Part shown: piece by piece, positions 15,733-45,676 of the stretch
How the letters are laid out: each line of letters begins with the position of its first letter
Position numbering within the stretch: the first letter of the stretch is position 1
Assembly: GCA_027604705.1 (NCBI GenBank)
Contig: JADHYV010000046.1
Span: forward strand, 1-64,000
DNA from: Allomyces arbusculus
Lineage: Eukaryota; Blastocladiomycota; Blastocladiomycetes; Blastocladiales; Blastocladiaceae
DNA length: 64,000 nt
Direction: 5' to 3'
Translations under genes and position numbers: made by a program
Notes under the pieces: model-generated
The model's input: the letters and a program-made list of their open reading frames with translations, nothing else
Told to the model about the DNA's origin: nothing
The model's database searches: none

Positions 15733-18700
15733 TCAGAGTCCCCTCTCGCCGCCCCTTTCCTTCGCAATCTCCGCATTCGACGCATTTCTGGCAGTGCCCG
15801 CCGCTCGCGGCCCACTCACCAGTCCGCGTGCCGGGTCCGTCGGGCTCACCGAAGCGCGGCGCCTTGCGCCCACCGAACGCACCGCCGGGGAACCCGCATC
15901 CGGCGACACACGCGGTTTGGATGCGGTAAAAGTAGTGGAAATGGCGTGGACCCACCGCCTTGCCTCGGCTGCGTCGTGGCATTGGATGACCGTGACATTT
16001 GGCGACGGTGATGATGCGTGAGTGATGAGCATGAACTGCGCTTGCGTGATCGGTGTCGTACTGGCGACGGGCAACGCGGCGCGCACGTCGATGGCGGTGC
16101 CACGGACGATGAGGTGGTGCGTGTGCGTGGTCTAGGGCGGGAATCCATCAGTCCTTGTACCAGGAGAAAGTGGGACAGCGCAGAGCGACGGACGCACCCA
16201 CGGATTGCGATCGAGCACCAGCAGCGTCTGCAGCGGCGGAATCAGCACGAGCGAGACGGCTTGCCACGGTGTCCACCACCACGCGCGCGCATCACGCCGG
16301 CCCAAAAGAGTCCCAACGAGCACGGGAAACCGGCACGCGACTGACTGCCGCGCGACCTTGCTGTTCCCCTGCCACGCGGTCGCAACGACCTGGACGACCG
16401 CGGCCATGTTCTCGTCCGGAACGCCAGGGACGGCCGCCAGGGTGCCTTCAACGGCCGAGTTGGTGGGATCGTTGCGCGTCTCGAGTCCCATATCGTCAAG
16501 GCTTTCGTTAACAAGCCTGGTGATCGCGCCGATGTTGTTGTTGGGTTTCCTGCGCGTACTCGAGTCCATTATGCTCGTCATTTTGCTCGAGTGCGATTCA
16601 GTCCCGCTTAAGTGCGCGACGGGCGCGAGCAGAAATTGGGACCCGCTCGCTACGACGAGAATCAGCGGGCGTAGCGATATGGCGACGGATCCGATGAGCA
16701 AACTAAGAATCGTAAGATTGGCGCTTGCAAACACGAGCAGGAACGGGTCGTCGGTGGTGAACTGGAGCACGGCAATAAACACGGACGGCAGCGAGATGCC
16801 CGTCATGGCCACCATGGTGGCCGTGGACTCGTTGTTGAGCACGGCAAGTGACCGGATGCGGTGTGCGAGAAAAATCCCAAATCCAGCAAGGAGCCAGTGG
16901 TAGAGCACCATGAGGTACGCGAGCGCAAAGTCGGCCGTCTCGATAATGCCCAAGTCCATGCGTGTCCCGCACCGGTACGTGAATGTGGTTGGACTGGCGA
17001 TCACTTGCACGGGCTGCGGCAACGTGGTGACAAGCCAGAAGGTCTCGAGAATGGCGTAGACTGCGAGGATGAGGACGGCAAGCAGTGCGAGATGCTTGTT
17101 GCTCACGTTGAGCCGGACCAGCCGCCCAGCAACGACAACCGAGAGCCGCAGGTTGGAGAATATGTAGAAGACGCGCCACGTCTTGGCAAGGAGCGCCACG
17201 AGTACGAAGCTGAGCCCTATGATCATCATGACCGACTGGGCCACGCAGAGAGCTGGGGTCAAGTCCGCTGTGAAAAGAACGTCCACCACGCCGCCGTATC
17301 CACCCATTAGCGCGCCGACATTGACGGCGGCAACAAGGGCTGGTGACTGAATGCGGATCAGTGGGTCGCTACGGAAGAACACCAGGCCGGCAATCGAGAG
17401 GCAGTTGATGGCGACGAGCAGGGCCAGCAGAGCAATTGAAATGGCAAAGGGTGCGGTTTGGCTCCGAACTGGCACCAAGGTCTTGACTATGTACGGAAAG
17501 TGAGCGGAAGGCGTTGAGGCGCAGAACCAGTGCCAGTAACACAGTACCATAGTCGCTTGGCGGCGGCGGGATCCACGGCCCCCAAAGCTGCTCGTTTTGT
17601 TGCAACCACGTGCACGCCGTCATGGCCGTGCCCTCGACGCCAGGCAGCGCCGACAACATGTCCACCATATCCGTGTCGCGAATCACAAAGTTGAGGAGCA
17701 GAGTGTGCACGGGCGGAACGCGTTGTGTCATGGACACCGAAACGAATTTTTGGATCACGTCCGTCTCCCAATCGCACCGCCACGAGGTGCGATTCGATGG
17801 AGCGAGCGTCAAGTCAAAATCCGCAATGCAATCGAGCGTCGCGGGTGGAAAGTTGACCTGCAGGAGTGAGTACCGACTCGGCAACGTTTCCGGGACCCAG
17901 TAGAAGAACAGGCACGTCGAATTGCTCGACTGCCGCTCGAGACACGCCGTGACGATCGGAACAAACGTAGGGCCAAGGTAGACGACGACGAGGGGCAAAT
18001 TGAAGTCGAGGATACGCTGCTCGTCCTTGCCCGGGCTGTAGTCTGGCGTGACGTGCCAGAACTCGCGACACGTCGTGTATGCGGCACCCTGGCACTGCGG
18101 CGGGACGTACTCACCATTCTGGCAATACCACGAGCTGCACAAGTACGACCCATCCGGTCCGCGCTGCGGCGGCGTCGTGCCGGCGCGGGGCAAGAGCTGT
18201 AGCAGGTTTGGGTCGCGCATCGACCCCCACGACGAGAAAATAATGCTCGGGTACAAGTCTGCAATGTAGGACGGGAAATACCACGAAACGCGGCCCACGT
18301 AGCCGAGAGCGCCGTACATGCCAACCACCTGCTGCTTGAGAACGAGCTATGACCGACGCCTGTGATGAGAGAAAGGTTCAATCTCGTCATCGCGTGAACA
18401 AACCGTACTTCGCGAATATCGCGCGCCTTGTCGTTTGGCCACAGTTCGAGCGACGCATCGCTCTCACCCGACGCAAGCCGAGCAAGTGTGCCAGATTGCC
18501 CCGGAAACTCGACGATCGTCACGTCAATCCCGAGAACTTGCTGAACGAGGAACGCTACCACGTAGGTGGACAAATTCGAGCTTGTTGGCGTCAAGTTACC
18601 ACGCGGGTCAAGACGCGCTCCACATGGCCAATACAAATCGCGTGTGGCTGTCCACCAGTTCGGCAAACCTACGCAAGCTGTGCCCCATCAAGACGCACCT

Positions 18701-19228
18701 TGACCACGCATTCGACTCGAGGACGACACGGCCATACTTGCGCCTAATGACCGACGTGGATTCCGGCCGGACCCAGCCGTATGGTGCGGCCACGGACGTG
18801 TTGAGGCACGACGGAACTCCTCGAACAATTTGTGCTGCGGCGAAAAGAGCAGGCGACTGCTGGGTCCCAGCCACCAGGACCGCGACGAGGACAAGAAGGC
18901 CGAGAATTGTCGCTGCACGGGTGCAACGGTGTCGCCTTTCGTGATTGTGACGGTGACCGAGCGTAATGAGCGTCATATTGCTCGCGGGAACACCTCCGTC
19001 GTATCGTGCCGGTGACGGTTGATTTTGGCGGTGCACAAGCTGGTTCAAGACGACTCGATTCGGCAATCTAGTACTGCCCGACATCGTCCAAGTTCGGTTT
19101 GCTGTAAGTCGTGGCTGGACGTGATGCTGGCGTTTGCTGGGTTTGCCGTCGTTGTCAGGTGTAGCCTCGATCGTTACCTGGACCGGAGAGACTGCAGTGT
19201 CGACCAGCGACTCTGGTTCTGGTAACAC
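15733..19228 (-). CDS. class C GPCR with OpuAC-like (glycine betaine) binding domain and PH-like tail, copy A
   Basis: Multi-exon receptor gene. The start is the ATG at 19228 or the later ATG at 19084. Order: basic N-terminus; hydrophobic signal/anchor (ILGLLVLVAVLVAG); a type 2 periplasmic-binding-like domain whose start (NLSTYVVAFLVQQVLGIDV, LARLASGESDASLELWPND) matches OpuAC/ProX proteins; an insert with four Cys around CSSWYCQNGEYVPPQC; sequons such as SNRTSW; then seven helices from about 17450 to 16640. The second intracellular loop reads LLAKTWRVFYIFSN, close to the GABA-B receptor signature. After a linker (GAITRLVNESLDDMG) and an intron at the conserved NPW codon comes a PH-like end, VIQCHDAAEARRWVHAIS (about 15930-15990). 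Introns after the GWSR-equivalent position and after NPW match those of copy C. It probably senses an osmolyte or amino-acid-like ligand outside the cell and signals through G proteins. Exact exon ends in the N-terminal third are not all fixed. Confidence 0.82.
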
Positions 19229-19373
19229 ACATCAGTTCTCCACCTCCAATGATAGGAGTTGTATTGAAGGCTGCGCATTCGCTAATCAGATTCACGTCTA
19301 TATTCTCAAAGAATCGGTCATCAGAAAAGCTCTATGCCCCTCCAACATCATTCTTCCCCAGCGCACAAAGAAA

Positions 19374-20699
19374 TTACGGCCGGCACTTGCCGCCCGCAAC
19401 ATCAATCGTCATGAGCTGCGCCGAGTCGTCAAAGACGAACCACTTGTCGGCCGGGACCCCCTGGAAGGCGGCCGTGAACCGCTCGGGCTTGTTAAGGTCC
19501 TTTTCCTTGTCGGCGTTCACGCCGACGACGCGGCGAATGAAAATGCACTTGATGGTCGTCTTAGTGACGGGTGCAAGCGACCGCCACGCGTCCCCATACA
19601 CTTCCGGGTCCTTCTCCGTTGAGTCGCCAATCATGACCCACTGGCGCCGTGGCGCCGCGGCAAACAGGGCCGAGATTTGCTCGCGCTTGTGAGCGGGCGT
19701 ACCCGCCCAAAAGTCGAGATCCGTCAGGCCAAATGGACGCGGGTGCAGCGAACCCTCTGGGTAGAGCTGCGCAATGAATGTCGTGAGCGGCGCAGCGAGT
19801 TGGTGGACCGACCCGGTCACGTAGTGGAATGAGGTCGGGTTCGCATCACCACCCGACAGTGTCTGCGCGAGCCGCGCGAAGAAATCGGGCATGCCGCTGA
19901 CGGGACGGAACGGCTTGATCAACGTGTTCTTGAGCGCCTTGGACTGGTCGTTGACTTCGGTGACGCGAATCTATTTGTTGCACACGGAAGAGGATGAGTG
20001 CGTCAATCGACCAGAATGTGATTCCAAGCGGAAGTCAAATGGCGAGAGCACTCAAAGTACGAACCGTGTCGTCAATGTCCGAAATGACGGAGAATCCATC
20101 AGCCGCAACGACCTGCACCTTGCCCATAAATCCAGGCTTACTGCCCGTGATCGACAGCCAGTTGGCCGAGCACGGCACCGTCAGCGAGAAGGGCGTCGTC
20201 GCCAGGCCGTGGTCGGCCGCAGGCGGGGTCGTCAAGCTCACCGTGGTGTTGCCCGCGATGGAAAACGGGAACGTGGCACCATCAGACCCCTTCTGGTAAA
20301 AGTACGCTGACATGGTCTGGAAACGCTGCCGATCCTCCTCGGAGCCTGCCGCCAGCGGAGCCACTACCTTGAGCAGCGTCGACGCGGTCGCCTTGACAAT
20401 GGCGTTGTAGTGCGTGGCTACATGAGGAAGCGCGGGTATCAGGCTGATTGCTCGCAAGTCGATTGCGTGTCAAAACGATGCGAGCGTGTACCGCGAGCCA
20501 CAAAGTTGCCCTGCACGCGGCACATGTTGCTGCCAGGCGTCAATGGTTCGGAGCGAATCCCAATCGCGCGCAACGGAGTCACGATTTCCACGGCTGATGG
20601 ACCAAAGATGCCGCGTTCGCCGAGCGCTGGCGCCGGCGCTGCCTGCACAAGGGCAGCAAGAAGAAGCAGCGTGGTCGTGAGCTGCAGCGTTGTTGTCAT
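19374..20699 (-). CDS. secreted App1-type phosphatidate phosphatase (DUF2183)
   Basis: Three or more exons, with the start at the ATG at 20699. The first 20 residues are a clear signal peptide (MTTTLQLTTTLLLLAALVQA). An intron (GTACAC to ATGTAG, about 20430-20510) joins VARA to THYNAIVKATASTLLKVV. The catalytic motif DIDDT (DxDxT) lies at about 20070-20085. The next intron is removed so that it continues IRVTEVNDQSKALKNTL, as in yeast App1. The family motif IGDSTEKDPEVYGD is at about 19600-19640. The C-terminus has a Trp-Phe-Val-Phe-Asp-Asp strand and ends GGKCRP. Yeast App1 is a cytosolic Mg2+-dependent phosphatidate phosphatase at actin patches; this protein keeps the catalytic motif but appears to be exported. 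The gene lies 146 bp upstream of receptor copy A on the same strand. Confidence 0.82.
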
Positions 20700-22011
20700 C
20701 CTGCAGGGTGAAGCCTTGGTTGCGTCTGGTTGCGTCTATGTTGCTCGCGGATCAGGCGATGGGTCCGACAGTTCAGAATGAGAGAGCATCAGCTTTATAG
20801 CTCGGTGACGCGGCCGTGATCCACGCTGCACTGCGGTGGCCAGGAGTATCGTATCCCTCGACGCGTGTTGCGCGTTGGGCGCCATTTTACTCCGGTTGCC
20901 GCGCGCACTCATGCCTTGATTCGGCCCGTTGGCATCCCAAACGTTGTGCAAGCTGAGGTTCTGGATGCAACATTCTCATTCGCGCGCGTGATTTGCTTGG
21001 TGTGACCAACACGTTGATGCGAATGAACGCCATCAAACTATAATCCGAGAGGCGGGGATTGCACTGAAGGATTTCTGCCATGCGACAAAAAACAACGATG
21101 CGGCACACTGGTGTCAGAAAAGCGCAGCACTGACCTGTTTCATCCGTCCATGTTCCTAAAGTAATGAGATGCTTGTTATCTGCAACAACCCAGTGATTGA
21201 ACTTGCGTGCTCACAGGAGGACATCTGGCGTGATGTGCATGCATTTTCAGCGCTTTCTGGAGCCAGATGGTTCTTGCGCCTTGACTCGTGCCGTGATGGT
21301 GGTAGTTATCCTCATATTTCGGCGAGCAAGCAGACATCAGGCAACGCCAGGGCCAAATCGTGTTACTTAGTCCTTCCATCTCTCCAACACCCAGCTCTGC
21401 CGACACACGTTTCTGGCTGCATAACAACAACCTGAAACAGGCCGGGCAACCGCGACGCCAGGCACCACACCGCTGAGACCGAGCTGGTGTTGCTGCCGAT
21501 AATTTACTAAAAACGTGCGAGGGGTTGTACAACCAGGGTATGATCAAAAACCAATCCATTGTCGAGAGTGACCGATGCAAAATGGTGATTGATTCGTCGA
21601 TCCAAGAGGAGCGCGGAAGCCAAGGAGAATGACGGCGAGTCCACCGGCTCGACGAGACGGCACACATGCAAGCATGAGCGGCGGTGGGGAATCGACACCG
21701 ATCTTGGCGAAAGCGGGAGGCAAAGACAAATGGGTGTCAAAATCAAGAAAGACGTCATAACGACGGCGAAATAGAACGCCAATGGAAACGATAACGGAAA
21801 TCCGCGCGTGGGAAGCAACGCACACAGCAAACGAACGACAACGACTATATACGAGCGTCAACGACAACCACAACAGCAACAGCAAATACCCAAGGGAATC
21901 GGACAAGAAGAGCAACATCGTGCCTTCGACCTCGAGGCAGCGAGCACAGTCGGGGCCCGACTGCACGGTCGCACATGCCATTTCGACACGCCAAGCAAAA
22001 GCGGTGTCGAT
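20700..22011. other. 1.3 kb intergenic, no gene recognised
   Basis: Between the App1-like start and the myosin V 3' end. It has somewhat lower GC. One minus-strand frame (about 21540-21980) has a hydrophobic stretch but no start context or family resemblance, and lies where the myosin 3' untranslated region is expected. Confidence 0.45.
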
Positions 22012-25000
22012 CTATGCAAACTTGAACAAGAGCACGACGCGCGGCAGGTCCATTTCCAGATCGGATGGCAGATACTTTTCGACGCCGAGAATCTTGCGCG
22101 GCTCTGGTCGCGAGAACCACGAGTTGTCCGTATCTGGCGTCGCTTCGAGCAGCAGCACGTCGGACCTGTCGGTCGACACAGATCGGCTCGCCACCGCGCG
22201 CAGAATCTCGGGTGAGATTGGGTTCTCGAAGTCGGCCTAGAAAAAGGATGGAGTAAACATGGTGAGAGGGCGAATGATTAAGCAAGAGAGAAGAAGTAGC
22301 GGGAATGGATGCGCACCACCGTGTAGATGGACATGAGCTTGGAGATTTGCGTCGGCGAGAGCAAAAAGCACACGTCAAACAGGTCCTCGATGTAGAGCTC
22401 GAGGTTGGTTGGCGTTGCCTTGTTGAGTTGCAACAGCTTGGCCGCCTGCATGAGCCGCTCGAGATGCAGCGATGCCTCGTTGAGCGAGTGCTGCGAGCAC
22501 CACTCGGTGAGCCGACTGACATTGTACTGGATCTGCATACCGCGCTTCCACGTTGCGAAATTCTTGCGCATGATCAGATGGTTGAACGCAATGACGCCGA
22601 CCATCTTGAAAATCTCCGACATGGTCTGGCGAATAATGGCGTCGTCGACGTAGTAGTACTTGTGCACGCGCCATACTTGGCCAATCGCATCGAGCAGCTG
22701 CTCGATCGTGTAAGTGGGCTGCGTCGAGACAAACTTCCTGAAGAGCGACGACGAGTCCTTGGCGACGAACCCGGGCAGTGACTGGTTCTCGATCACGCAC
22801 GGGATGATGAACTTCTGCATGCGCTTTTTGACGAGCCGCACCCACTGGAAGTAGAGGTTCGTGAACGCGCGCTCGACCTCGACGACCGTCTTGTTGAGCA
22901 AGCGCTCGCCCTCCATGTAGATAGACGTGCGCCGTGCTGCGGCCAAGGCGGCGGCGCCCGGCGACGCGCTGCCGGCGAGCCCCGACGTTTTGAGAATGCT
23001 GAGTAGCTCGAGCAGGTTCGACATCCAAAAGTTCGTCACTTCGTCGTCGAAATTGGAAGCCACGACGCGCTCCTCAATGGCCTGCGTCGCGTTCTTGAGG
23101 AACGAGGCCATGTTGCTGTTCATGCCGTGCTGCCAGGCCTTGATCGAGTAGAGCCCAAGAATATGCGCCGGGAACACAATCTGCCGCCGGCTCGCGTCTT
23201 GCGTTGCGTGCTTGGGGATCGGCAAGTTGCGAATGACGCCGTCGAGAATCTCCGACTCGAGTTTCGGGTCCTGCAGCAGCGAGAACGTGTGCTCCTGCTC
23301 CATGATGGCTTCCTCGACAGTACGCGGTGGTGTGTGACCGCCATTGAGCAGGTTCACGGGGTCGACCTCGACCATGGCCTTCATTTCCTCGGTCCAGACC
23401 TCAACCGACGAGTGGCGGCGCACGCGCTTGAGTGCGTCAAACGACCCGCGGGACGTCATGCGTTCGGTCGGCGAGACTTGCGACAGTGGCGTGACTTGCC
23501 GCCGCCACAGAGCCTCGGGTGGCAGCGTGTCGACCGACGGCCGTCGCGGCCGTGCTGTGGCGAGCTCGTGCTTGGCCTTTTCGTCCTCGAGCTGCTGCTT
23601 GAGTGCAATAACCTCCTGCTTGAGCACATTGATTTGCGTTGACTCTTGAATGAGCGCCTCTTGCCGCGCCAAGGCGGCAATGCGCTCGCGCTCGCGGTCC
23701 TGGTGCTCGGTTGCCTGCTGCTGCTGGAGCTGCTCCTGCTGCTGCAACAACTGCTGCTGCTGTTGATCGCGGTCACGCAGCTGCCGCTGCGCCGTGGCCT
23801 TGAAGTTGGCGAGCGACTCTTGCAGCGCGGCAATCTCGGCATCCTTGCTGCGAATCACGTCGTTAGCGGCATTGAGTTGTGACTGCAGGCCCTTGTTCTG
23901 CTGCATGATCGCTTCCATTTCGCGGCTCGACGACCCGGCATCCTGCAACTTGTCCTTGAGCTGCTGCTGGTTCGACTGTGCCTGCTCGAACTTCTCGCGC
24001 CACTGCTTGGTCTGGGCCTCGAGCGCCTTGACAACCTCGTTAAGTTGCCGCACCATCTTCTCCTTGCCGTCGAGCGACTGCGTGAGCTCGACGACCTTGT
24101 TTTCGAGCCGGTACGAGATCTCCTTGTAGTGATTGACCGACTTGGCCTCGAGCTTGAGCGCCTTGAGTTCCTTGCGCGCGCGGTACCGGCGAATACACGA
24201 CTGCGCGAGAATAACACGCTTGCGTGCTGTCGCGTACTGCATGCGCGCGCGGTATCCACGGAACGCCGCCTGGATCTCAATCGCCGCTCTCTCTTCACGC
24301 AGCCGCTGCAATTCGCGGCGCGCGACATACGACCGCCACGCGCACTGCAGCGTGACGACGGCCGACCTTGTGCGGGCAAACTCGCGCTGCGCAAGGTACC
24401 GGCGGAAACACGCTTGGATCACGGTCGCAGCCTTGGCCTCGCGAATCGCGCGCGCTTGCTTGCGCGCGTGCACGCCGCGCACGCGCGCCTGCAGCGAAAT
24501 CACGGCCGACCGCAACTTTAGGTACCGTTTGCGCGCGAGCGCGCACTTGATGTTCTTTTGAATCATGACGACGCACTCGTTGAGCCGCTGCGTGCGCAGC
24601 TTCTCGAGGTACGCGAGCTGGCCAGCACGGAAAAAGATCTTGGTCATGCCAATCTGGTACTTGTCGGTGTCTGGGATCGTTCGCGTGAGCAGCTTGGTGC
24701 AGAGGCCGCGAATGTCCTTGAACTGCGCCCATTCCTTGGACGGTAGCAACAGGTAGTACCGCTCGACGAATTCGACAAACGTCCATCGGCCCGGGTAACC
24801 CGCCGTCGAGATGCGAATGGTCTCGAGAACACCGCACGCGCGCAATTGCGAGAGCACCATCTGCGGCTCAAACTCAAACGGTTTCTTGGCCGAGTTCGAC
24901 TTGATGCACCGAATGTAGCTGACCTCGGTTGCGTTGATCGTGTCCATGAGTTGCGTGAGCGACTGCTTGAAGACCGACCCGAGCGTCGGCTTCGACATTT

Positions 25001-27574
25001 TCCCGCCGCCGCCCATACTGCGCGCCATAACAGGACTTGTGGCGCGGCTCGACACGGGCGAGGGCTTGTTGATCTTGTGCGCCGAGATCACGTCGTGCAA
25101 GAAATCAAACTGCGCGTTGTTGAAAAGCGCGAGCAGTTCGTCGGGCACTGTATCCTTGTTTTTTTCAATGAACCCCTCAATCTCGTACTCGACATTGTGC
25201 GCAAAATGGTGCACGATAAACGACGTGTTGGAGAACCGCGGCTTGCCGAAAAACTTGTGCTTCTTGTCGAATTGGTTGTAAAACTTGGCAATCAGCGTCT
25301 TGTCAGACCCAGACGGCAAACGCGACTCTTCGTCGAGCAGCGACAGCAGACCCATGCGGCCCTCGATCAGCTCAATGCACGGCTTGTTGTCGTTGAAGTC
25401 GATAAATGACCACTTGATCTGCTCCTTGACGTACTCTTCCTGCTCGAGCTTGAAGACGTGCTGGTTGAACTCTTGCTGCAGCTTTTCGTTGGCCCAGTTG
25501 ATGCACCCTAGCGATGGTGGTGGGTCGGGCGGGGAGTCAGCGGCCCGGTCCGACTTGAAAGGAAGCGTCGGCAGTGGAGAAGGTCAATGACGGCGTACAC
25601 TGCTCAAACGAGTTCTTCTTGAAATGCTCGAACCTAAAAACGGCTCGCTGTGAGTACTCGTATTCGGACACCGTTGATCACAACGCTGTGTGGCTCCGAG
25701 AAGAACGGACCCGTAAATATCCAGCACGCCAATGAAGCTGTGGTACGAGTTGGCGACCTCGGGCGGGCACAGCGACTCGTTGGTCTTATCGACGAGCCAC
25801 TCGAACAGCCCCGCGTACAAGAACTTGGCGACCGAGTCGCGAATCGCGACGGCGCCGACCATGTTGACATTGGTCACAATCTTTTCGAACCGCGTCACAA
25901 TCTGCTTCTTGACGAGCCACTTCTTGAACTCGGCGACTTCGACACCCAACAGCTTGCACGTCTGCGCCATGGCCGCGTCGTCGTCTGCAATGTAGGCCTC
26001 GTCATTGCGCAGGTTCGTAATTTGGATGTTGCCGATGTGCAGCAGCGCCGCGAGAAGTCGGAACAGTTTCCACTGCACGGTCACCGAGACGCCGATCGTC
26101 GACAGTGCGCGCTGCGTAATTTCAAATTCGGCCGCGTCGTCGACGCCAGGGACGGTTCCAGACCCGCCGCCTTGGTTCAGGTAGTGGAAGTACGAGTGCG
26201 GCTGCAGACCGAGCTCCTTGCGCTCGGCCGCGGGCGCGCCGGCGACCAGCTGGTAGAAGATGTGGTAGTTGCGCTCCGTTTCGGGCTGGTAGATGACGCG
26301 CGACCGCTCGAGCAGGTAGGTGCGGATACGCGCGCCAATGATCTTGGCGTGTTGACTGAACAGCAGCTAGGAGAGTGAGGTTGGTTGCGTTAGCGCGACT
26401 GGCAAGGGCGGTGCAGATGGAGGGCCACTGAGCAAGGGAAATGGAAGTCAAAGGCAAGCAAGCGGATCCTATATACCTCAATGTACTTGCCAAACCGCGA
26501 CGAGTTGTCGTTGCGCGTCGTCTTGGCGTTGCCAAATGACTCCATGATCGGGTTTGTCGCTGAAAGCAGTGGGCCAGACGCAGGTCAGCCATGAACAGCA
26601 ACAAGGAGGGGCGTTCAGGCACAGGTGGCACGACATACCGAGAACCTGCTGCTCGACCTCGCTCATGCCGGCAGCATTGGTCGGCGACGTGACCTCGGCG
26701 GCCTGGAAGTAATCCTCGCCAGACTCTCCTGCATCGGCCATGGCGAAATAGCGCTGCAAGCAACCCACGCAACCTGGTCAATCGGGCGCTCACGAAGCCT
26801 GTCCACCCGTCTAAAATAGGGCGTACCATGATGTACTTGGCCGAGACCGTCTTCCCAGCACCCGACTCGCCCGAGACAATGATGCTCTGGTTCTTCTTTT
26901 CGCGAATCATGCCGCGGAACGCGTCTTCAGCCACGGCAAACAAGTGCGGCTCGAGCTCGCCGCGACGCTTGCCCGAGTAGGCGCGGACCACGTCTTGCGT
27001 GTAGAGCTGCACGCGCTGGAAAGGGTTCATGGCGATCAGGACAATGCCCGAGTAGGTGTAGATGTTGTGCTGCGAGTAGCGCGTGCGAATGTTGTGCAGG
27101 ACTGGTCACGAAATGGAGGATCAAGGTCAGATCCGCTTATCTAGAGCCAAACTGCCGCCAAGAACGTCGTGATCGTACCAGCAGGCTCGTGCAAGTAGGA
27201 CAGGTTCGTCAAGTCCTCGATGCCCTCGAGCATGGGTGGGTTCTTGAGCGGCGGCAGTTCGTAGCTGTCTTTGCTCGCCGCGATCTTGGCAATGGTCGTC
27301 GACGTCGTCACATCCTGGACGAACACGATCGTCAGTCCTCGATCCATTACACGATCCATCACCGCACGACCCATCACCCCAAATTTGCGCTTCCTCCTAC
27401 CTTGCCCAAATCGTCGGTCACCTTGACAGTCACGGTATCGCCGCTGCGCACGAGCGAATGCACGGATGCGACACGCCATCCCTCGACCGCATCCTGCACC
27501 CACACTTTGGTGCCAGGCGTGTAGGCCGTGAGCAGCGCCTCGGCGGCCGCGACCGGGTCCGTGGGGGCGGTCAT
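22012..27574 (-). CDS. MYO5: class V myosin heavy chain
   Basis: Large gene: several small exons code for the motor, one 3-kb exon codes for most of the rest, and a short last exon ends at 22012. The start is the ATG at 27574 ([20 protein letters not shown]), with an N-terminal SH3-like region ([20 protein letters not shown]). The motor has the P-loop GESGAGKT (about 26860), switch [13 protein letters not shown] (about 26500), switch II in VLDIYG (about 25720) and the actin-binding loop region. At least five IQ-type repeats follow (24560-24150, e.g. [20 protein letters not shown]). Next come a Gln-rich coiled coil and a cargo-binding DIL domain (about 23200-22300, e.g. [20 protein letters not shown]). 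Yeast relatives Myo2/Myo4 carry vesicles, vacuoles and mRNA along actin. Introns separate [19 protein letters not shown], the post-GYIE segment, the switch II exon and the last exon. Some short exon joins (around 25600 and 26480-26800) are inferred from family order. Confidence 0.92.
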
Positions 27575-34117: not shown

Positions 34118-36409
34118 CTACGGCTCATCATCGTCGCTTGTCGAATACAAGTGCCGCGCCGGCTCGGCTTCCGTGAATCGCACACGGTTCACCGTCCGCT
34201 GACCACCGGTCGCGACTGACGAGGTCGTGGACGGCGGGGCGGGCGGATAGTACGCGACAGCACTCGCCGTTGCTTGTGGCGGCGGCAACGCAGCCCCGGA
34301 GAGCAACGGAGCCCGCGCAGACACATGCGGCGCGGCAGGCACTGTAGCGGCGGATGCGCAATCATTCCTTGCGCCACCTCCGCCGAGGAGCGGGACGGCC
34401 ACGTTTTTCGTTGCGGGAGCGCGTGGATGCGCCGGGGACGGTGACCGCGAGCGAGCCGGGGACGGCAGCATCGACGCTGCAGCCGCTGCCGCCGCGAGCC
34501 CCTGCGGAGGCGTGATATGCACGGCCGGGGGGTGCTGGTGCGCGCGCGTCGCGGGATGTGGTGCCGGTTGCGCGACGCGCAGTGCCGGAAAGGCCGCGGT
34601 CGCCGGTTCGGGCGCGACTGTTGGCGTGGTCACTTCGACGGCGGCAACTTCGGGCCTGTCGGGGATCGCGGTAAGGATTGGTGGCACGGCATTGCGTGGG
34701 CCCGGCGCGTAGACGGGCGCAGCATTCACGGCCACGGCCACGGGCGTCACGAGGTGCGCTGTCCCGCTTGGCTGGTACTGGACGAGGTCCGGCTGCGAGC
34801 TGTTGACGACGCCGAACCGCAAATTGCCGAGCGCGCCCATGGCCGGAGGCACGGCCGCCTGTGCAATGGGTGCTTGCGACGCGCTCGCGATGCTGATTTG
34901 CGACAGATTCGAAGTGAGCTGCTGCTGCAGGCTGAGCTGCGACGCGTTCGGGTGCAGGCCGATCGGCCGGTGCAAGCTGATTTGCGACACGTTGTACGCA
35001 GTCGGCTGCTGCACGAGACTGATGACCGACGACGACGCGTGCCCGCCGAGCTGCCGCTGCAGCGTATTCGGGTCGGCATTCGACGACGTCCGGCTGCTTG
35101 CGACCGATAAGGACGGGATTGGCAGCTTATTGTCACCCTGCGGCGTCAGGGTCCCCGAGCCCCACGCGGGATTTGGCTTGGCGCCGAGCAGCGGCGCGAC
35201 AGCAGCACCGTTCCCGTGTCGCCCCGTCGGCGTTGGTGGCACGTACGACGAAAAATCGATGCTCGGGAGCGCGGCGACAGGCCGACCAGGATTCGCGGGC
35301 CCGACACTCACGGTGTTCCCGCAACCCGCGCGGCCGTGATGCGCGCCTTGACGGAATGTGGTTGCCACCCCACCCTGCGGGCCGCGCCCACCGCTGCCGT
35401 GGTGACCAGCCGCGGCCCCGTCGGCGTACATTTGCTGGAGCGCGTACTGCTCCTCCTCCACGCGCATTTGCCGCTTAGTGGACATGAGCGCCGTGATGCG
35501 CTTGTCGACCATGTGGCACACGTACTCCTTCAAGTTGCCGCGAATGCGATAAAGAAGCGGAATGTACATGACCGCGGCGACAAGTGTCGAGAGCGCGTTG
35601 ATCACAAACATGGTGAAGACAAAGGCCATGGTCACGACCCCAAACTGCTTGGTGAGCTGCTGCACGCCCGAGAAATACGAGATGAACCGGTAAATGTCGA
35701 AAGTGGCCACGAACTGGGCCATTTGCCGGACCGAAGCCGTCGGGTTCAGTTCCTTAAACTTCCTGATGTCGTCGTCGGTGGGCGTGCCCATTTGCTTGAT
35801 CTGCCACCAGAGCAGTAGCGCCGTGACAGCGTGACGCGGCGTCTCGGCAAAGAGTAGCCGCTTCCACCCCTTGAGCTGGAAAAACACAAACTGTGCGATC
35901 TGGTCGGACGTCTTGTGGTGCATACGAATCTCTTGGAAAAAGCACCAGTGCGCAAACGACCGCAGGGAATAGTACCGGTAGGCAATCACGTCCGTAAACG
36001 CAAACGAAATGTCGTGCGACTGGATGATACGGCGCGACTTGCGCATGTCGTTGGCGAGTAGCAAGAACGACACAATGATCGACCCGACGTAGACCCACCG
36101 CAAATTGTCGGCCAAGTTGTGGTAGGTTGACGGCGACACGCCGAGCTCCTTAGCCAAATTGGCGTTCTTCACGATTTCGTCGGGCGACTTGGTCGACCAT
36201 TGGTTGAAGAGAATGATGAGCATGGCCGTCGACACGTCGGCTAGGTAGACAATAAATGAACGGAACACGTCGAGAAAGAGGAACGTGTACCCCATGTACG
36301 ACCAGCAGTCGTTCATTTGGTACTCTTCCACGTCGACAAAATCCCACTTGTGGTCGAGCACCTCCTCGCGCTTCCAGTTGGACTTTTTTGCAAACTTGAG
36401 GCAACTCAT
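34118..36409 (-). CDS. Kch1-like low-affinity K+ transporter with long disordered tail
   Basis: Intronless, 763 residues. The start is the ATG at 36409 (MSCLKFAKKSNWKREEVLDH), chosen because the upstream part of the frame is Arg-rich and unlike protein. The N-terminal 350 residues match fungal Kch1/Prm6: helices near WSYMGYTFLFLDVFRSFIVY, WVYVGSIIVSFLLLAND, the hallmark FFQLKGWKRLLFAETPRHAV, FGVVTMAFVFTMFVINALST and a final LREYIC-like stretch LKEYVCHMVDKRI. In yeast these proteins admit K+ during pheromone response and trigger Ca2+ influx. The remaining 410 residues are low-complexity Ser/Pro/Ala/Gln with repeated motifs such as NxSQ(I/L)S(L/I) (around 35000-34890: NVSQISLH, NASQLSLQ, NLSQISIA). 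These look like a disordered regulatory tail, longer than in yeast. Confidence 0.82.
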   Translation of the reverse strand: MSCLKFAKKSNWKREEVLDHKWDFVDVEEYQMNDCWSYMGYTFLFLDVFRSFIVYLADVSTAMLIILFNQWSTKSPDEIVKNANLAKELGVSPSTYHNLADNLRWVYVGSIIVSFLLLANDMRKSRRIIQSHDISFAFTDVIAYRYYSLRSFAHWCFFQEIRMHHKTSDQIAQFVFFQLKGWKRLLFAETPRHAVTALLLWWQIKQMGTPTDDDIRKFKELNPTASVRQMAQFVATFDIYRFISYFSGVQQLTKQFGVVTMAFVFTMFVINALSTLVAAVMYIPLLYRIRGNLKEYVCHMVDKRITALMSTKRQMRVEEEQYALQQMYADGAAAGHHGSGGRGPQGGVATTFRQGAHHGRAGCGNTVSVGPANPGRPVAALPSIDFSSYVPPTPTGRHGNGAAVAPLLGAKPNPAWGSGTLTPQGDNKLPIPSLSVASSRTSSNADPNTLQRQLGGHASSSVISLVQQPTAYNVSQISLHRPIGLHPNASQLSLQQQLTSNLSQISIASASQAPIAQAAVPPAMGALGNLRFGVVNSSQPDLVQYQPSGTAHLVTPVAVAVNAAPVYAPGPRNAVPPILTAIPDRPEVAAVEVTTPTVAPEPATAAFPALRVAQPAPHPATRAHQHPPAVHITPPQGLAAAAAAASMLPSPARSRSPSPAHPRAPATKNVAVPLLGGGGARNDCASAATVPAAPHVSARAPLLSGAALPPPQATASAVAYYPPAPPSTTSSVATGGQRTVNRVRFTEAEPARHLYSTSDDDEP

Positions 36410-37989
36410 GGTGGTGGGCAATGTCGCGGCCGCGATGACAGTGCAATCGATGCAAAAATGACAGCGTGGGCGTCTGGCGCGGCCACGGGGCCGAATCAAA
36501 AAATAGTCGGCAAGCAGGCCACGGGCTGCACGATCGCAACGAGCGGGCACGTCGAAAGATCGATGATGCGGTCGCAGACGCCACCACAAAGTGAATGTCG
36601 GTCAGGGTCCCGGTAATGGTGTCGTGCTGCGTCGTTGCGGCAGGCGGCAGTAAAGTGAGTCGTGCGCGTGGCCGTTGTGCAAAGAATCGCAGTTGTGGCC
36701 AATGGGATCGTCTGCACCGAGGTGATGGTGGAATGGTTCTGCAGCAGTTGGACTGCAATGGGGCCGAGCAATCATGGATTGGCGACGGCACGCCAAGGAG
36801 CGGGACCGTGCTCGTGGGCTACGCTGGTGCCGCCAGACCAGGAAGCCGAAGCGATGATGAATTGATCATGGCCAGGTACGTTGGCGCGCGTCGAATGGCG
36901 AAGCGTGACAGCAACCCAAGCACGGAGAGAAGAACGAGACCTACGTCAGCCAAGACCCAACGGACCCATGCTTGTCCGCCCAACTTTCGCTTTGTCGGTG
37001 ACATGGGATGGCATGGCGTACCGAGAGCACAATGATCAAACGTTGGCAGCTCTTTGGCCGCCCGCGGCCACGTTGTTCGTCAGACTGGTCGTCGCCGCCC
37101 AACACTTGTCGCTGGCTCGTCAGACGTGTGCCCAGGCGTCGCGGCGTGCCAATAATAATGGTCGGGACCAGCGCGAGCAGGATTCGAGCGATGTGCCGCA
37201 CGTGCTGGCGGTGATGGCTGCGGGAAGGGGCTGCGGAATCCTTGCGATGGAGAATGACTGCGGTAAAGGCGTTGCAGTTCGTTAGTCGTGAAACTGGTTC
37301 GTGCGTCCAGTTGAGTACGCTGGTGGCCCGTTGGTTGCAGCAGGTGGAGGTTGGCCAAAGGGCGGATCCCAGTCGAAATTTGCTGGTGTACAAGCTGGCC
37401 GTGGTGGTCGAGTTGGGTTGAGGGTCCAAGCATGACCGGCGAGCGGCCCCTGCGGCAGGTCGCCTTCTGTGTGCGGAAACTGCGGAGCGGTTGGTCGGCG
37501 GAGTCGCGGCAACTTTATGATCGCGGCTCAGCAGTGCGAGACAGCGTGATCTGCACGCGATAACTGCGACGCGTCTCCCAGCTCAGCGGCTCCCACGACG
37601 ATGAACGGCGGCCTCCTGTGAACGGCCGGCCGCTGCAGGCCAACATGAGCAAGCCCGCGTCGCCTTTCATGGGGTTAGCGCAAGACCAGGTGAGGTGGGA
37701 ACGTGCTTTGCAAGCGAGGAGGCACGGGCAAAGCACGTTCCCACCTACTTGCTCTGCAAACGCGATCGAGTGTACGGGAAAGACCCTTCTCGACGGCGCT
37801 CAAGATCATCCTCGCTCCCTGCACCGACCCACGTCGCCCTCGCCTTGTCCCGCTTTCTCCTCCTTGAGCCCTCCACTCTCGCGAGCTGTCTGGCAACGGA
37901 CCCCTCCGCAACCCCCTCAACCCCCACCTCAACCCCCACCTCAGTCGCCCCCGATCACACCCGAGTACCAATCACCGACGACCTGCACC
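36410..37989. other. 1.6 kb divergent intergenic region with possible small membrane ORFs
   Basis: Between the Kch1-like start (-) and the membrane-protein start (+). Minus-strand frames at 36819-37004 (containing WVRWVLADVGLVLLSVLGLL) and about 37080-37430 contain hydrophobic stretches and could be exons of a small membrane protein, but I find no ATG-led, spliceable whole. It contains the perfect hairpin at 37693-37746. Confidence 0.35.
37693..37746. repeat. perfect 19-bp inverted repeat (hairpin)
   Basis: Arms at 37693-37711 and 37728-37746 are exact reverse complements (AGGTGGGAACGTGCTTTGC and its complement) around a 16-nt loop. It lies about 245 nt before the ATG at 37990, probably in the leader or promoter of the membrane-protein gene. 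Confidence 0.9.
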
Positions 37990-39369: not shown

Positions 39370-39659
39370 GGACCGACCGATTAACTGGCAATTGGCGGAC
39401 GCGCGTGCGCCCGAGGTGTGTAGTCCCCATAGTGACGCAGTGAATACGAATTCCCATTTCCTACGTTGCCATGTCCTTTGAGCTCGTTCCTCCAGTCCAC
39501 TAAACCACTACGAGAATTCATGTCGGCACCCGGCTCGTCGCCTCGCTCAACCCACTGGTCCGCCCACGGCCAACATCCGTCAAGGCGTGGTCCACCGTGA
39601 AGCCATCCACCGTTGCCGGTCTTGGTCGCTAGACATGGGCCACGGTCGCGCGGCGTCGT

Positions 39660-41431
39660 ATCGTCGATTGCGCGGGCTCGGCGTCAATCTGCGTCACAGA
39701 AGCAGTGAAGGTCGTGGTGATCGCGTGCACCCACCGCCAAGCCTCCGCAGCGTCGCGGCACTGAACGGCCGACTTTCGCGGCCTGGATGACGCCGCGTCC
39801 GTGACGAGCAGGAAACGGTCCTTGTCCGCGGGTGGGCTTTATTGGCTGGGCCCTGGCGGTGCTGGCTGCACAACGTGGGCTTCGACACTCTGCCGTAGTG
39901 CAAAGTTGTGCGGATGCGTGGTCTACGTCGCGTGGAGACACAGGTCAGGTCGTGATCCGAGCGGGATAGAAATTCAAATCAAAGCGGTTCGTACCCACGG
40001 ATCGCGATCGAGAATGAGCAGAGTATTCAGCGGCGGAATCAGGACGAGGGTGACGGCTTCCCACGGCGTCCACCACCACGCGTGCGCCGCGCAAGCCAAG
40101 GTGCGTGCCGACAAGCATGGGGAGCCGGCACGCGATCGAGTGCCGAATCGTCGCTTCGCTTCCGTGCCATTCGGTGACGACAGTCCGGACAGCGGCGGCC
40201 ATGTTCTCGTCCGAGACGTCGGGTATATTGCCACCCGTCATATTTCCGTCAAGAGCATAGCCGCCTGACAGCTGGTTGCGCGTTTCGATCTCGACATCTT
40301 CGAGCTTTTCGTTCACGAGCTTGGTCAGGGCACCGACCGCGTCCACCCCGGGACCGCATCTCCCCGAATTGGTCGTCGTAGCGATGGTCGTGTGCACGCC
40401 GCCAGATCGTCGTGACCATGGCACCGATCTGAGAAGAAACCGGCTTGTGGTGCCCACAGCAAGACCGAGCAGGTGCAGCGAGACGGCTATGGAGCCGACG
40501 AGTAGACTGAACAGAGCAACAATCCCGCAGTCAAACACGACCACAAACAGGTCAGAGGCCGTGGCTTGAATGGCAGCGACGAAAATGGTCGGGAGCGTGA
40601 CGCTCACGGCGGCAATCATGGTCACTGTCGACTCGTTGTTGAGCATGGCGAGCGACCGGATCCGTTACGCGAGGTACAGGCAGGTGCCAGAGAGCACCCA
40701 GTGGTAGAGCAGCGCGAGGCCCGTGAGCGCGACCTGCACGGTCGTCACCGTTCCGAGGTCCATCAGTGACCCGCACCGATACGTGAATTTTGTCGCACTA
40801 GCCGATTGCTGCACGGGCTGCGGCAACGTGGCCGAAATCCAAACCAAGATGAGAAGCGCGTCGAGTGTGAGTATCAGAGCGCCGGAGTAGCGCGAGGTGT
40901 CTGTTGCTCACGTTGAGCCGAATCAGGCGCCCAGTAACGACGAGCGAGAGTTGCAGGTTCGAGAATATGTAGAAGACGCCACGTCTTGGCAAGGAGCGCG
41001 ACGAGCACGGTGCCGAGTCCCAGTGCCGACACCGCCGTCTTGGCCGTGCAAACGAGTGCGCTCGCTGCATTGGCGAACACGAGATCCAGGGTTGTGCCAA
41101 TCCCGCTAACAAGCGCCCCAAGATTGAAGGCCGCGACCAAGGCCGGCGACTGGATGCGGATCAACGGGTCGCTGCGGAACCACACCGGGCTGGCGAGTGA
41201 GATGCAGTTCGTGAGGACGAGCGTATCCAGCAGTGGGATCGAAGAGGTAAACCACATTGTCTTGGCCGGAGTCAACTGCAACGTCTTGACTTGAAAAAAA
41301 AAAAAAAAAAAAAANNNNNNNNNNTGAACCAACCGGGGGGGGCTTGTGATTTTTTTTTGTTTTGGATGTGGTTTTTCAGCTGTGGTTTGTCTTTGTTAAA
41401 CAAATTTTTTGTGGGGGGTGTAAATTGCTAA

Positions 41432-41462
<31 letters not shown>

Positions 41463-42010
41463 AAACAGTATTAGAATATGGTGGTCAGCGTGGTTAAATG
41501 CAAACCATCGAAATCTTCGCACCATAATCGCCTGGCGGCGCCGGAATCCACGACTCCAGATGCGCTCGTTCTCGTGCGCCCATGCGCATGCAGTCGCGGC
41601 CGGCTCGCCAGAGTCAGGATCCGAAAGCATGTCCACAATGTCCGTATCACGGACGACAAAACTGAGCAGGAGCGAGTGCACGGGCGGGACATGCTGCTTG
41701 ATGGATGCCGTGGCCTGGTTAAGCTCCTGGTGCTCATGGCCATGGATGCGAGCGCAGATGACCATACCCAACTCGACCACCCAGACGTTTCCATGACGAT
41801 GCCATGATATTTGCGCCGAATAATTGTCGCAGACTCTGGGACGGCCCAGCCATACTTGGCCGTCACGGCCGCGTCGAGGCACGACTGCACAGCTCGAATG
41901 GCTTGTGCTGTTGTGCACGAAACGATCCTCGCGCAGATGCCAATTGTGACCGCAGCGATAAGCGCAATGTGGGCAGAGACTGTTCGACGTGATCGTCTCA
42001 GGCGCTAAAC
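39660..42010 (-). pseudogene. decayed class C GPCR / OpuAC-like receptor, copy B
   Basis: Homologous to copies A and C but broken. The N-terminal part is there (AVQSCLDAAVTAKYGWAVPE, about 41910-41840). Most of the binding domain is missing: the sequence goes almost at once to IKQHVPPVHSLLLSFVVRDT (about 41700). The seven-helix part follows from about 41270 to 40480. Compared with copies A and C it has lost 2 nt near 40980 (after LLAKTWR), gained 1 nt near 40890, and has a stop codon at about 40666 where the others have the His of the AHRIRSL motif. The PH-like end is still readable at about 39690-39750 (VQCRDAAEAWRWVHAI). A sequencing gap and odd AT-rich insert (41297-41465) interrupt it, so part of the damage could be assembly error, but the frameshifts and stop lie outside the gap. 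Confidence 0.8.
41297..41465. other. sequencing gap and AT/homopolymer-rich insert
   Basis: A run of 20 A leads into 10 N (41315-41324). About 140 bp of T-rich and G-run sequence unlike the rest of the window follows, closing with another long A run (to about 41465). It separates two parts of receptor copy B and looks like a poorly resolved scaffold join. Confidence 0.85.
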
Positions 42011-42288
42011 GCGACTCGACGAACTTGTCTTCTTGCTGATCATCATTGACAACGCGTTGATGCAGCTGGCATTAGTTGTTTGTTGCTGCTCATGATCCTT
42101 GGCAAACGTTCAAAGTGATTGCCGCAAGTCGCCGCTGGCAACATGGCAACCATGACGATAGCGACATCTCATGTGAGCTGTCTCGCCAATCTATTCTGGT
42201 GCCAATCAACTACGTAGCGCGATGCGATGCCACAAATTCCCATCATCTGAGCTCTTCTCCAACATTCCGCCCACCCCTCACGCAGAAA

Positions 42289-45200
42289 TCAAGCCCACGT
42301 CTGGCTCCTCGAACTGCCCCGCAGCACATCGGTGTGCTCCACTCGGCTGACCCGTTCACTACCGACCTCAGTCGAAGCGTGCAACGCCGTGAGTAAAATA
42401 CGCGGTCCGCCCGTCGCGGCAGCCGGCGCACGGCGCCTTGTCGCTGGCCCACGTGCCCTCTCCACCCCAAATTGCGGCGATCCGGACGGGTCAAAGGTCG
42501 AAGTGATAGCGTGCACCCACCGCCGCACCTCTGCAGCGTCGCGGCATTGAATGACCGACGTATGCGACTTGAGTGACGTTGGGTCAGCAATGAGAAGGAA
42601 GCGACTCTGATCCGACAGTGAACCGCGTTGGCCGGGCAATGGTGGTGCCGAAAATACAGCGCGGGCGTCGGCGACCCGTCGCAGCACGAGGTTCTGCGTG
42701 TGCGTGCTCTATTCCGAGTTGAGAGTCGGGTCAGGCCGTGATTCACACGAGAAAATGCATGCAATGTGATCCGTACCCACGGATCACGATCGAGGATCAA
42801 GAGCGTCTGCAAAGTTGGAATCAGCACAAGCGTCACGGTCTGCCACGGCGTCCACCACCACGCATCAGCGTCACGCCGGCCCATGTGCGAGCAGACGAGA
42901 ACTGGGAGACGGCACGCAATCGATTCCCGGGCGATTTTGCCAGTTCCGTTCCACGCGGTCGCAACGGCCTGGACGGCGACGGCCATTTTCTCGTCAGAGG
43001 CACCAGCGACGGCGGCCAAAAAGGCGTGGTTGCCAGCCTTGCTGCTGGGTTCGTCGCGCGTATCGAGCCCCACGTCTTCAAGACTCTCGTTGACGAGCTT
43101 GGTGATGGCGCCGATCGCATCACCGCTGCGCCTGCTGTTCCCAGCATCTGGGCTCTTCGTCGAGACTCTCCGGCCGCGCACCTGGGCCGCACGCGCCCTC
43201 GACCCAAACAGCAGCCTGCCACCGCTGTCCACAGCGAGAATGAGCGGGCGTAGCGACATGACGACGGATGTGACGAGAAGGCTGAGCAGTGCAACAATCG
43301 CGTTGGCAAACACGAGCACGAACGGGTCGGTGACGGTAACTTGATTTGCCGCAACGAGAAGGGTGGATAGCGTGACGCTTGCCATGGCGAACATGGTCAC
43401 AGTCGATTCGTTGTTGACCATGGCGAGCGATCGGATTCGGTGCGCGAGAAAGAGACCGACGCCAGCGAGCATCCAGTGGTAGAGCATGGGGAGAGCCATG
43501 AACGTGATTTGCGCAGTCGTAGCTGGGCCCTGGTCCATCAACGACCCGCACCGGTACGTGAACTCCGTCCTGCCAGTGAACTTCTGAACGGGGCGTGGCA
43601 ACACGACCGAGATCCAGAGCGAGATAAGGAGCGCATCGAGGCCGAGGATCAGAGCACTGAGCAGCGCGAGGTGCTTGGTGGTCACGTTGAGTCGGAACAG
43701 CCGTCCAGCAATCACCAGCGACAGCCGCAAGTTCGAGAAAATGTAGAATACGCGCCAGGTTTTGGCGAGAAGCGCCGCGAGAACGATGCCGAGCCCCAAA
43801 GTCGATACGGTCATCTTGGCCACACAGACAACTGAGGTCAGTGCATTTGCGAGCATGAGTTCCAGCACGCTGCCAACACCGCTTGTCAACGTTCCAAAAT
43901 TGATAGCCGCAACCAAGACCGGCGATTGCAAACGGACGAGCGGATCGTCGCGGAAGCGCGCCAGGCCAATCAGCGAGAGCAGATTAACGACGACGAGCAG
44001 AGCAAACAGAGCGAGCGTAATCGCAAACGGCGAGATTTTCGCCGAAATCGGCTGCAATACCTTGACTAGAAACGGAAGCGAGTTACGTGAGGATGTGCGC
44101 TCGCTTTGGCATATGCGCACAAGAGACAAAACATGCGCACCGTAATCACTTGGCGGCAATGAAATCCACGGCCCCCAGATGTGCTCGTTTGCGCGCAGCC
44201 ACGCACATGCCGTCGCGGCCGTATCAGTGGGGTCCGAGAGCGCTGAGAGCATCGCGGCAATGTCCGTGTCGCGGACGATAAAGTTGAGTAGGAGCGAATG
44301 CACGGGTGAGACACGCTGCTTGATGGATGCTGTGGCAAACTTTTGGAGCACGTCGGTCTCCCAGTCACACCGCCATGACGTCGTATTCGACGGCGAGATC
44401 GACTGGTTGAAAGCGGTCATGCACGCGAACGTTGCTGGTGGGAAATGAACGGCCTGGAGCGAGTACCGACTCGGCAACGTTTCGGGAGCCCAGTAGAAAA
44501 ACAGACACGTTGAATTGCTCGACTGCCGCTCGATACACGCCGTGACGGTCGGTATAAACGCAGAGCCGAGGTAGACGACTACGAGCGGCAGATTGAAGTC
44601 GAGGATGCGCTGCTCGTCCATGCCTGGGCTATAGTCGGGCATGACGTGCCAGAACTCGCGACACGTCGTGTATGCGGCACCCTGGCACTGCGGCGGGACG
44701 TACTCACCGTTCTGGCAATACCACGAGCTGCACAAGTACGACCCATCCGGTCTGCGCTGCGGCGGCGTCGTGCCGGCGCGGGGCAAGAGCTGTAGCAGGT
44801 TTGGGTCGCGCATCGACCCCCACGACGAGAAAATAATGCTCGGGTACAAGTCGGCAATGTAGGACGGGAAATACCACGAGATGCGGCCCACGTAGCCGAG
44901 AGCACCGTACATGGCAATAAGCTGCCGCTGGATGACGAGCTACAGTTCTTGAGTCGGTCAGATGATAGAACCTGCCCGCAAATAAGCCGGCACAAAAGCA
45001 ACAATAGGCACCTCGCGGATCACGTTCTCCTTGTCGTTTGGCCAAATTTCAAGAGACACGTCGGAAGCGCCGCTGGCAAGACGAGAAAGCGTCACAAACT
45101 GCCCGGGGTACTCGACGAGCGTCACGTCAATGGCGAGGACCTGCTGAACGAGAAACGCGAGCAAGTAGGTGGAGAGGTTCGAGCTGGAGGATAACAAACA

Positions 45201-45676
45201 TAATTCAGCTTGGCGCCGCGAGTTGCTGACCAAGTTTGCGATTTGTTGATGGTAGGTACTGACCTGGACCAACCTTCTCCCTCGAGGACGACACGATCGT
45301 ACTTGTGCCGTATGGTTGATGCGGATTCCGGCACGGTCCAGCCATACTTGGCCGTTACCGGCGCGTCGAGACATGACGGCACGGTTCGGATTATTTGTGC
45401 TGCAGTCGGCACGACGTAATCTGAGAGGCCAACCACGAGGGCGACGAGCACAAGCGCAGGCAAAGCGACAAGAGCTGTTCGAGCTCGTTGTCGTCCCTGG
45501 TGAGGGCGCGATCGAGGTCGGAGCGTCCATAATAATTGATCATTCAAGTTGCTGAGGGTTGGCATGCCAGTACTGTCAAATTGCCGCTGGGATTTCGATT
45601 CAGCACTCAAGTGTGGGCGCAGATCAGTTGCAGGGACCAGCTGTTGCTGCATTGATGTCAACCGATGAGTTGACAC
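42289..45676 (-). CDS. class C GPCR with OpuAC-like (glycine betaine) binding domain and PH-like tail, copy C
   Basis: Intact paralogue of copy A. The start is the ATG at 45676 (MSTHRLTSMQQQLVPATDLR). It has a signal/anchor helix (TALVALPALVLVALVVGL), then AQIIRTVPSCLDAPVTAKYG and YDRVVLEGEGW. After an intron, the OpuAC-like lobe follows: SNLSTYLLAFLVQQVLAIDV and LASGASDVSLEIWPND. A second intron leads to one long exon from about 44912 (MYGALGYVGRISWYFPSYIA) to the conserved DPW codon near 42775. This exon covers the second half of the binding domain and seven helices, including LLAKTWRVFYIFSNLRLSLV and the ECL Cys pair (CVAKM, YRCGS). After an intron at about 42716-42773 the PH-like domain runs from LVLRRVADARAVF to VIQCRDAAEVRRWVHAIT, ending at 42289. 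Class C receptors usually dimerise and bind small ligands in a two-lobed domain; here the lobe is of the bacterial betaine/proline type rather than the usual LIVBP type. Confidence 0.85.

Follow-up and report, generated by a model that had tools for sequence, protein, structure and literature searches.

What does a class C G-protein-coupled receptor sense when its extracellular head belongs to a bacterial family of betaine-binding proteins? The question is raised by the first 64,000 nucleotides of contig JADHYV010000046.1 of Allomyces arbusculus (assembly GCA_027604705.1; this whole stretch is referred to here as the window), in which an earlier note, made from the sequence alone, had described three copies of a receptor that carries a bacterial-type betaine/OpuAC binding head, where animal class C receptors use a LIVBP-type Venus flytrap, and a PH-like module at its end. 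The exchange of the LIVBP/ANF flytrap for a type II head is borne out: the spliced product of the first copy, copy A, scores above the cut-offs of both OpuAC (PF04069) and 7tm_3 (PF00003), and we regard the architecture of this receptor family as very nearly certain to be real. The explanation that we favor for the observations as a whole, and which we consider probable rather than assured, is an onium-sensing OpuAC head on a class C seven-helix (7TM) domain with a PH-like tail.

Two of the copies are intact receptor genes on the minus strand, with starts ~27 kb apart. Copy A (15733–18976; exons 18976–18699, 18580–18409, 18346–17548, 17486–16198 and 16131–15733) encodes 978 amino acids and copy C (42289–45565; exons 45565–45264, 45183–45012, 44939–44141, 44065–42777 and 42708–42289) encodes 993, with an alternative in-frame ATG for copy C at 45652. 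Both were spliced by hand, guided by their mutual similarity, and each has open frames and four GT-AG introns at matching places; introns fall within the head and one lies at the junction between the head and the 7TM domain. An alignment of the two proteins, 932 columns long, shows 61% identity, and they share the same order of parts, namely signal peptide, OpuAC-type head, short linker, seven helices, variable linker and PH-like tail. The motifs LVQQVL, LASGxSDxSLE(L/I)WPND, KTWRVFYIFSN and RRWVHAI, on which the earlier note had relied, are present as quoted in both. The public A. arbusculus protein GGF31_006296 is copy A (100% identity over 90% of the model) without its first exon, and the public model for copy C, GGF31_006303, begins with a different upstream sequence and ends with part of copy B; corrected gene models are supplied here for copies A and C. 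A homologue search with copy A found 15 proteins, including AMAG_01751, AMAG_04246 and AMAG_04252, and a further search yielded 11 proteins among the matches listed, none of them additional. Close relatives of both copies occur in A. javanicus and A. macrogynus, and public proteins of other Blastocladiomycota carry the head and the 7TM domain in one chain.

To which family does the head belong? In copy A, it spans 17548–18840, from the end of exon 1 to exon 3, and resembles a two-lobed binding protein of the OpuAC/TmoX type. Spliced copy A matches OpuAC with 35.8 bits (cut-off 21.2, E 8.8e-9), a match that covers the first lobe, and the head alone scores 39.1 bits. The corresponding head of copy C (44141–45403) is assigned by its similarity to copy A and by its own OpuAC match, since OpuAC is matched at E ≤ 0.1 by all seven aligned heads (copies A and C, one from A. 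javanicus, three from Blastocladiella and one further A. arbusculus sequence). The same OpuAC search of unspliced DNA gave no match in the window, where introns cut the lobe. ANF_receptor has no match in spliced copy A at E ≤ 10 or in the seven heads at E ≤ 0.1. A profile built from these seven heads, with no bacterial rows, has six PDB matches at E ≤ 1, and every one belongs to the onium-compound type. DmpX (7yle, 2.2e-16) and TmoX (4xz6, 1.4e-15) are each matched as two stretches, one per lobe, followed by OpuAC (2b4l, 1.5e-7), lactococcal OpuAC (3l6g, 1.2e-4), a transporter subunit (7ahc, 8.7e-4) and a choline-binding protein (2reg, 0.016). Among NCBIfam models, choline-binding and ProX models each match two of the seven heads (E 0.0013 and 0.025 at best), and no named model is returned for the head of copy A.

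The fold of the head was modelled with AlphaFold2 on P0012, a full-length Blastocladiella relative that stands in for copies A and C (mean predicted local distance difference test score, pLDDT, 76.0). A Foldseek search of the PDB with this model places TmoX at the top (E 1.7e-13, TM-score by target 0.75) and DmpX second, with OpuAC, ProX and ChoX lower and interspersed with class C receptors; the model gives TM-scores by target of 0.69–0.76 to TmoX, DmpX and OpuAC. The head is therefore predicted to adopt a two-lobed type II fold, and the two checks that the earlier note had proposed, profile similarity of copy A and the aligned heads to OpuAC and a two-lobed predicted structure (here that of the relative), are both favorable. 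VIA-align listings were dominated by the 7TM domain and are uninformative on the head either way, and a search of a viral fold library with the receptor model returned viral G-protein-coupled receptors at the top. When prokaryote genomes were scanned with the head alignment, no relative came up; a second scan, made with the TmoX sequence, gave sequences 87–98% identical to TmoX among the best 80 of 440 matches. A separate feature of these heads is a conserved cysteine-rich insertion between the lobes, C..C.NG.YVPPQCQG.....C.E.W, with four cysteines invariant in all seven heads and no equivalent in the TmoX rows.

The seven-helix domain is of the class C type. In copy A it lies at 16696–17457 and matches 7tm_3 with 80.2 bits in the genome search and 75.8 bits after splicing (cut-off 33.5), and in copy C it lies at 43266–44033 with 75.3 bits in the genome search and 71 bits in a second search. 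By profile, the closest 7TM domain in the PDB is that of subunit 2 of the receptor for γ-aminobutyric acid (GABA), GABA-B (3.9e-23), and the second-loop motif is common to both in that alignment. Spliced copy A has no match to the nine-cysteine domain, a further likeness to GABA-B subunit 2. The difference lies outside the membrane, where GABA-B has a type I (ANF/LIVBP) head and the receptors described here carry a type II, OpuAC head, and at the C-terminus, where GABA-B is not known to have a PH tail.

The C-terminal PH-like domain is encoded by two exons in both copies (15916–16332 in copy A; 42487–42911 in copy C, by similarity to the tail of copy A). The earlier note's assignment of a PH-like module is upheld by layout. 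The tail of copy A reaches 18.6 bits against Pfam PH (PF00169), below the cut-off of 25.1, and five of six tails match at E ≤ 1. In the P0012 model, residues 730–826 form seven strands and a C-terminal helix by DSSP, which is the PH layout, and residues 736–845 of the P0005 model, from a close relative, show the same layout at lower confidence. No PH domain appears among the 50 matches listed by Foldseek for the P0012 model, and for this reason the assignment of the tail relies on its layout together with the weak Pfam scores. The sole PDB profile match of the tails, a Rho-GEF at E 0.47, was too weak and was not used.

Does this tail go with the OpuAC head or with the 7TM domain? Across the assembly (25.9 Mb in 197 contigs), 88 matches to 7tm_3 cluster into 59 loci, and 41 Pfam PH matches were found at E ≤ 1. 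Eight of the 59 loci have a PH match within 1.5 kb downstream on the same strand (8 of the 41 PH matches; 0.07 expected by chance), and no PH match among the 41 lies upstream of any of the 59. These loci are at C42, C74 (three), C3, C4 and C98 (two), and three of the eight PH matches exceed the PH cut-off. In six-frame searches the C42 and C74 tails pass it at 28.8 and 26.2 bits, the latter scoring 23 bits as an open reading frame. One C74 locus has an ordinary ANF head, with ANF_receptor (1.5e-11) and 7tm_3 (1.4e-36) in the same frame and PH (1.2e-4) in the next open frame, and therefore the tail goes with the 7TM domain and not with the OpuAC head alone. Within the OpuAC branch, similarity identifies the tail at eight of ten loci (A, B, C, C89 and four on C98, two of these being the query genes); the C6 tail is weak, and at C104 similarity did not establish one. 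Taken together, the sequence matches suggest a chassis of 7TM and PH domains with exchangeable heads.

The ten loci derive from a search of the genome with the head of copy A, which returned 20 pieces at 10 places, namely copies A and C, a fragment at copy B, C6, C89, C104 and four on C98. Each of the ten is followed by a 7tm_3 match on the same strand (that of copy B falling below the cut-off), such that none has the setting expected of an ATP-binding cassette (ABC) importer part. Moreover, exon-by-exon genome searches found no free-standing OpuAC protein, and a transport role is unlikely for this reason. The four C98 places (C98:37600–57500) form a direct tandem of further OpuAC-headed class C receptors with PH-like tails.

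Comparison of copies A and C indicates that both are under purifying selection. The ratio of nonsynonymous to synonymous divergence (dN/dS) is 0.35 overall, low in the head, and lower in the tail (0.28) than in the linker that precedes it (0.49). Within the head of copy A, a tract at about 17921–18320 on the minus strand shares 89–99% DNA identity with copy C in 100-base windows, as against mostly 50–76% in other exon windows, and the synonymous divergence (dS) is 0.14 inside the tract and 1.03 outside it. This tract looks like the product of recent gene conversion within the ligand-binding head.

The third copy that the earlier note had counted alongside these two is present in decayed form. 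Copy B (about 39554–41968, minus strand) was recovered as tblastn pieces in three frames and retains the signal-peptide exon, a fragment of the distal lobe, a broken 7TM domain with a frame change inside KTWRVFYIFSN, and the tail; none of its pieces matches the OpuAC motif region. A 10-N assembly gap (41315–41324) with homopolymer runs on both sides lies at this copy. The larger 7TM piece is 74% identical to AMAG_01758 and 71% to AMAG_04252, versus 53% to copy C. Because it is nearer to these A. macrogynus proteins than to copy C, copy B is on sequence grounds a separate copy, decayed in A. arbusculus.

Which ligand would the intact heads accept? The cage of TmoX, which binds trimethylamine N-oxide (TMAO), consists of Trp55, Trp102, Phe106, Glu131, Trp177, Phe220 and Trp222 (PMC8918994), and the pocket of DmpX, which binds dimethylsulfoniopropionate (DMSP), consists of Trp35, Thr64, Trp84, Glu113, Trp152, Ala153, Tyr200 and Trp202 (PMC10030565). 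Of the proteins with solved structures, TmoX and DmpX, from marine bacteria, come closest to the head in sequence, and they are also the best PDB fold matches listed; they differ from the receptors in being soluble ABC-importer parts. Pocket positions were mapped onto 15 receptor rows, in which copy A and P0001 are one gene. All 12 rows that have a residue at the Trp102 position keep the tryptophan, Trp222 is kept in 12 of 13, and the Phe220 position holds F or Y in 12 of 13. For Trp55 the count is 9 of 12; two of the three exceptions are public models without the exon, and the third is copy A as aligned with those models. In alignment A2, which uses spliced copy A, Trp55 is invariant in all seven rows. 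Three of the four TmoX cage tryptophans are thus kept (Trp55 in intact models, Trp102 and Trp222), and they are kept across rows from Allomyces, Blastocladiella and Catenaria.

Several observations weigh against a TmoX-like head with an onium ligand. Glu131, which in TmoX bonds the oxygen of TMAO, is kept in none of 15 rows (V, I or T instead) and Phe106 in none of 12; TMAO itself is not favored because these two residues are replaced. In the Trp177 column all 15 rows have S or N, with an invariant W seven columns upstream, in REFWHV, that is a putative substitute for it. The close relative P0005 has R at Trp222, and tryptophans 149, 319, 327 and 330, outside the cage, are conserved too, so that a conserved W is not specific to the pocket. 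Trp55 is in any case weak evidence, since changing its counterpart in a second TmoX to alanine leaves relatively high binding (PMC8918994). As for the fold, the alignment behind the P0012 model held seven TmoX rows, which may bias the head towards TmoX; the first model, of P0005 from 13 receptor sequences without TmoX rows, had an unusable head (pLDDT mostly <50); and the identity of the head to TmoX is only ~20%. By the aligned residues, most of the aromatic side of an onium pocket is present and the polar side is different, which makes a methylated onium ligand other than TMAO the best guess. The kept aromatic residues would favor such a compound over plain amino acids or GABA, and we rate the prediction of a small methylated onium ligand as evenly poised between right and wrong.

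How might such a receptor work? We hypothesize that the ligand, a small methylated onium compound such as glycine betaine, choline, DMSP or a relative of these, binds in the cleft by stacking on the conserved tryptophans, upon which the two lobes would close. Closure would be transmitted through the short linker, without a nine-cysteine relay, to the GABA-B-like seven-helix bundle, which by analogy would activate a G protein. In GRK2, a PH domain acts as a reader of phosphoinositide or of G-beta-gamma, and by analogy the cytosolic PH-like tail may bind either of these and hold or tune the receptor at the membrane. The receptor could conceivably also guide zoospores, as the earlier note had suggested.

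Foremost among the alternatives is that the architecture is as described and the head binds another solute, such as an amino acid, proline, GABA, a peptide or a sugar, with the tryptophans kept for the fold. The absence of Glu131 and Phe106, the displaced fourth tryptophan and the conservation of tryptophans outside the cage all agree with this possibility, which we hold to be real and yet doubtful. It has to contend with the finding that all six sequences matched by the head profile in the PDB at E ≤ 1 belong to the onium-compound type, and with the retention of Trp102 and Trp222, whose counterparts in the second TmoX mattered by mutation (PMC8918994).

Another hypothesis is that the head no longer binds a ligand and acts in dimerisation or targeting, while a partner receptor senses the ligand. 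The GABA-B pair works in this manner, with subunit 1 binding GABA and subunit 2 coupling, and it is subunit 2 that is nearest to the 7TM domain here; moreover, P0005 has lost a cage tryptophan, and the cysteine-rich insertion could mediate a protein contact. However, the cage tryptophans are kept across three genera and dN/dS is low in the head, which argues against a non-binding head and renders this hypothesis improbable. It is much less probable still that the genes are decaying tandem copies or annotation artefacts, an idea that draws on the broken copy B beside an assembly gap and on the truncated or fused public models, as opposed to which the frames of copies A and C are intact, their introns match, dN/dS is 0.35 and close relatives occur in two further Allomyces species. 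Finally, bacterial contamination, or a free-standing binding protein mis-assembled beside a receptor gene, might be proposed for a head from a bacterial protein family and is rejected on account of the introns inside the head and at its junction with the 7TM domain, the same-strand 7tm_3 match after all ten heads, and the single-chain relatives in other Blastocladiomycota.

The earlier note had implied that OpuAC-headed class C receptors are novel; however, the combination has been known since 2012. The A. macrogynus set of Krishnan et al. comprises 78 class C receptors; AMAG_01750, 04252, 14324, 14326, 15836 and 17562 are listed there with OpuAC, and AMAG_01751 and 04246 are labelled LysR_substrate (PMC3251606). 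These belong to the same genus and gene family, and AMAG_04252, 01751 and 04246 are close to the window copies. In the parts of that paper available to us, neither a relation to TmoX or DmpX nor pocket residues are given, and a word search of its main text for 'PH domain', 'pleckstrin' and 'C-terminal' returned nothing. In anaerobic gut fungi, about half of the class C receptors were reported in 2016 to carry type II heads (PMC5168858). Those receptors are alike in joining a type II binding protein to a class C 7TM domain with neither ANF nor a nine-cysteine domain, and unlike in that their heads resemble sugar-uptake binding proteins and not onium-compound ones (PMC5168858). Liu et al. (2025) compiled 918 fungal Glutamate-class receptors (class 16), 7tm_3 receptors like those described here and enriched in Blastocladiomycota and Chytridiomycota, and neither OpuAC nor the PH domain occurs in a word search of the main text (PMC12842992). 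In searches of open-licence papers, including word searches of the main texts of PMC3251606, PMC12716839, PMC5168858, PMC13308352 and PMC12842992, no report of a class C receptor with a PH tail was found, nor, in searches of such papers, of a relation between such heads and TmoX or DmpX. What does look new is the PH-like tail, together with the pocket details.

The other genes noted in the window all lie on the minus strand. They encode a protein with RA and sub-threshold PH matches (7843–11454), a myosin V-like protein with myosin head, IQ and DIL (22278–25583), a fungal KCH potassium channel (34118–36601), a protein with cytochrome b5, weak b561, FAD-binding and NAD-binding matches (47342–50212), and a 2-oxoglutarate dehydrogenase E1 (50564–52975).

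What do these receptors mean for the family? They combine a class C 7TM domain and a binding head of an unrelated type, and they suggest that class C receptors can have a PH-like domain built in, which the literature searched does not mention. The fungal Glutamate class is among those said in a 2026 review to need experimental validation (PMC13308352), and the residues kept in the pocket provide a testable ligand class for one branch of it. We tentatively put forward the wider view, as a possibility that may well prove wrong, that Blastocladiomycetes have a modular class C system in which a GABA-B-like 7TM domain with a built-in PH domain exchanges ANF and OpuAC heads, and in which the OpuAC branch would comprise receptors for methylated-onium osmolytes such as betaine, choline and DMSP. 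If the head does bind an onium compound, it would be a ready-made sensor domain.

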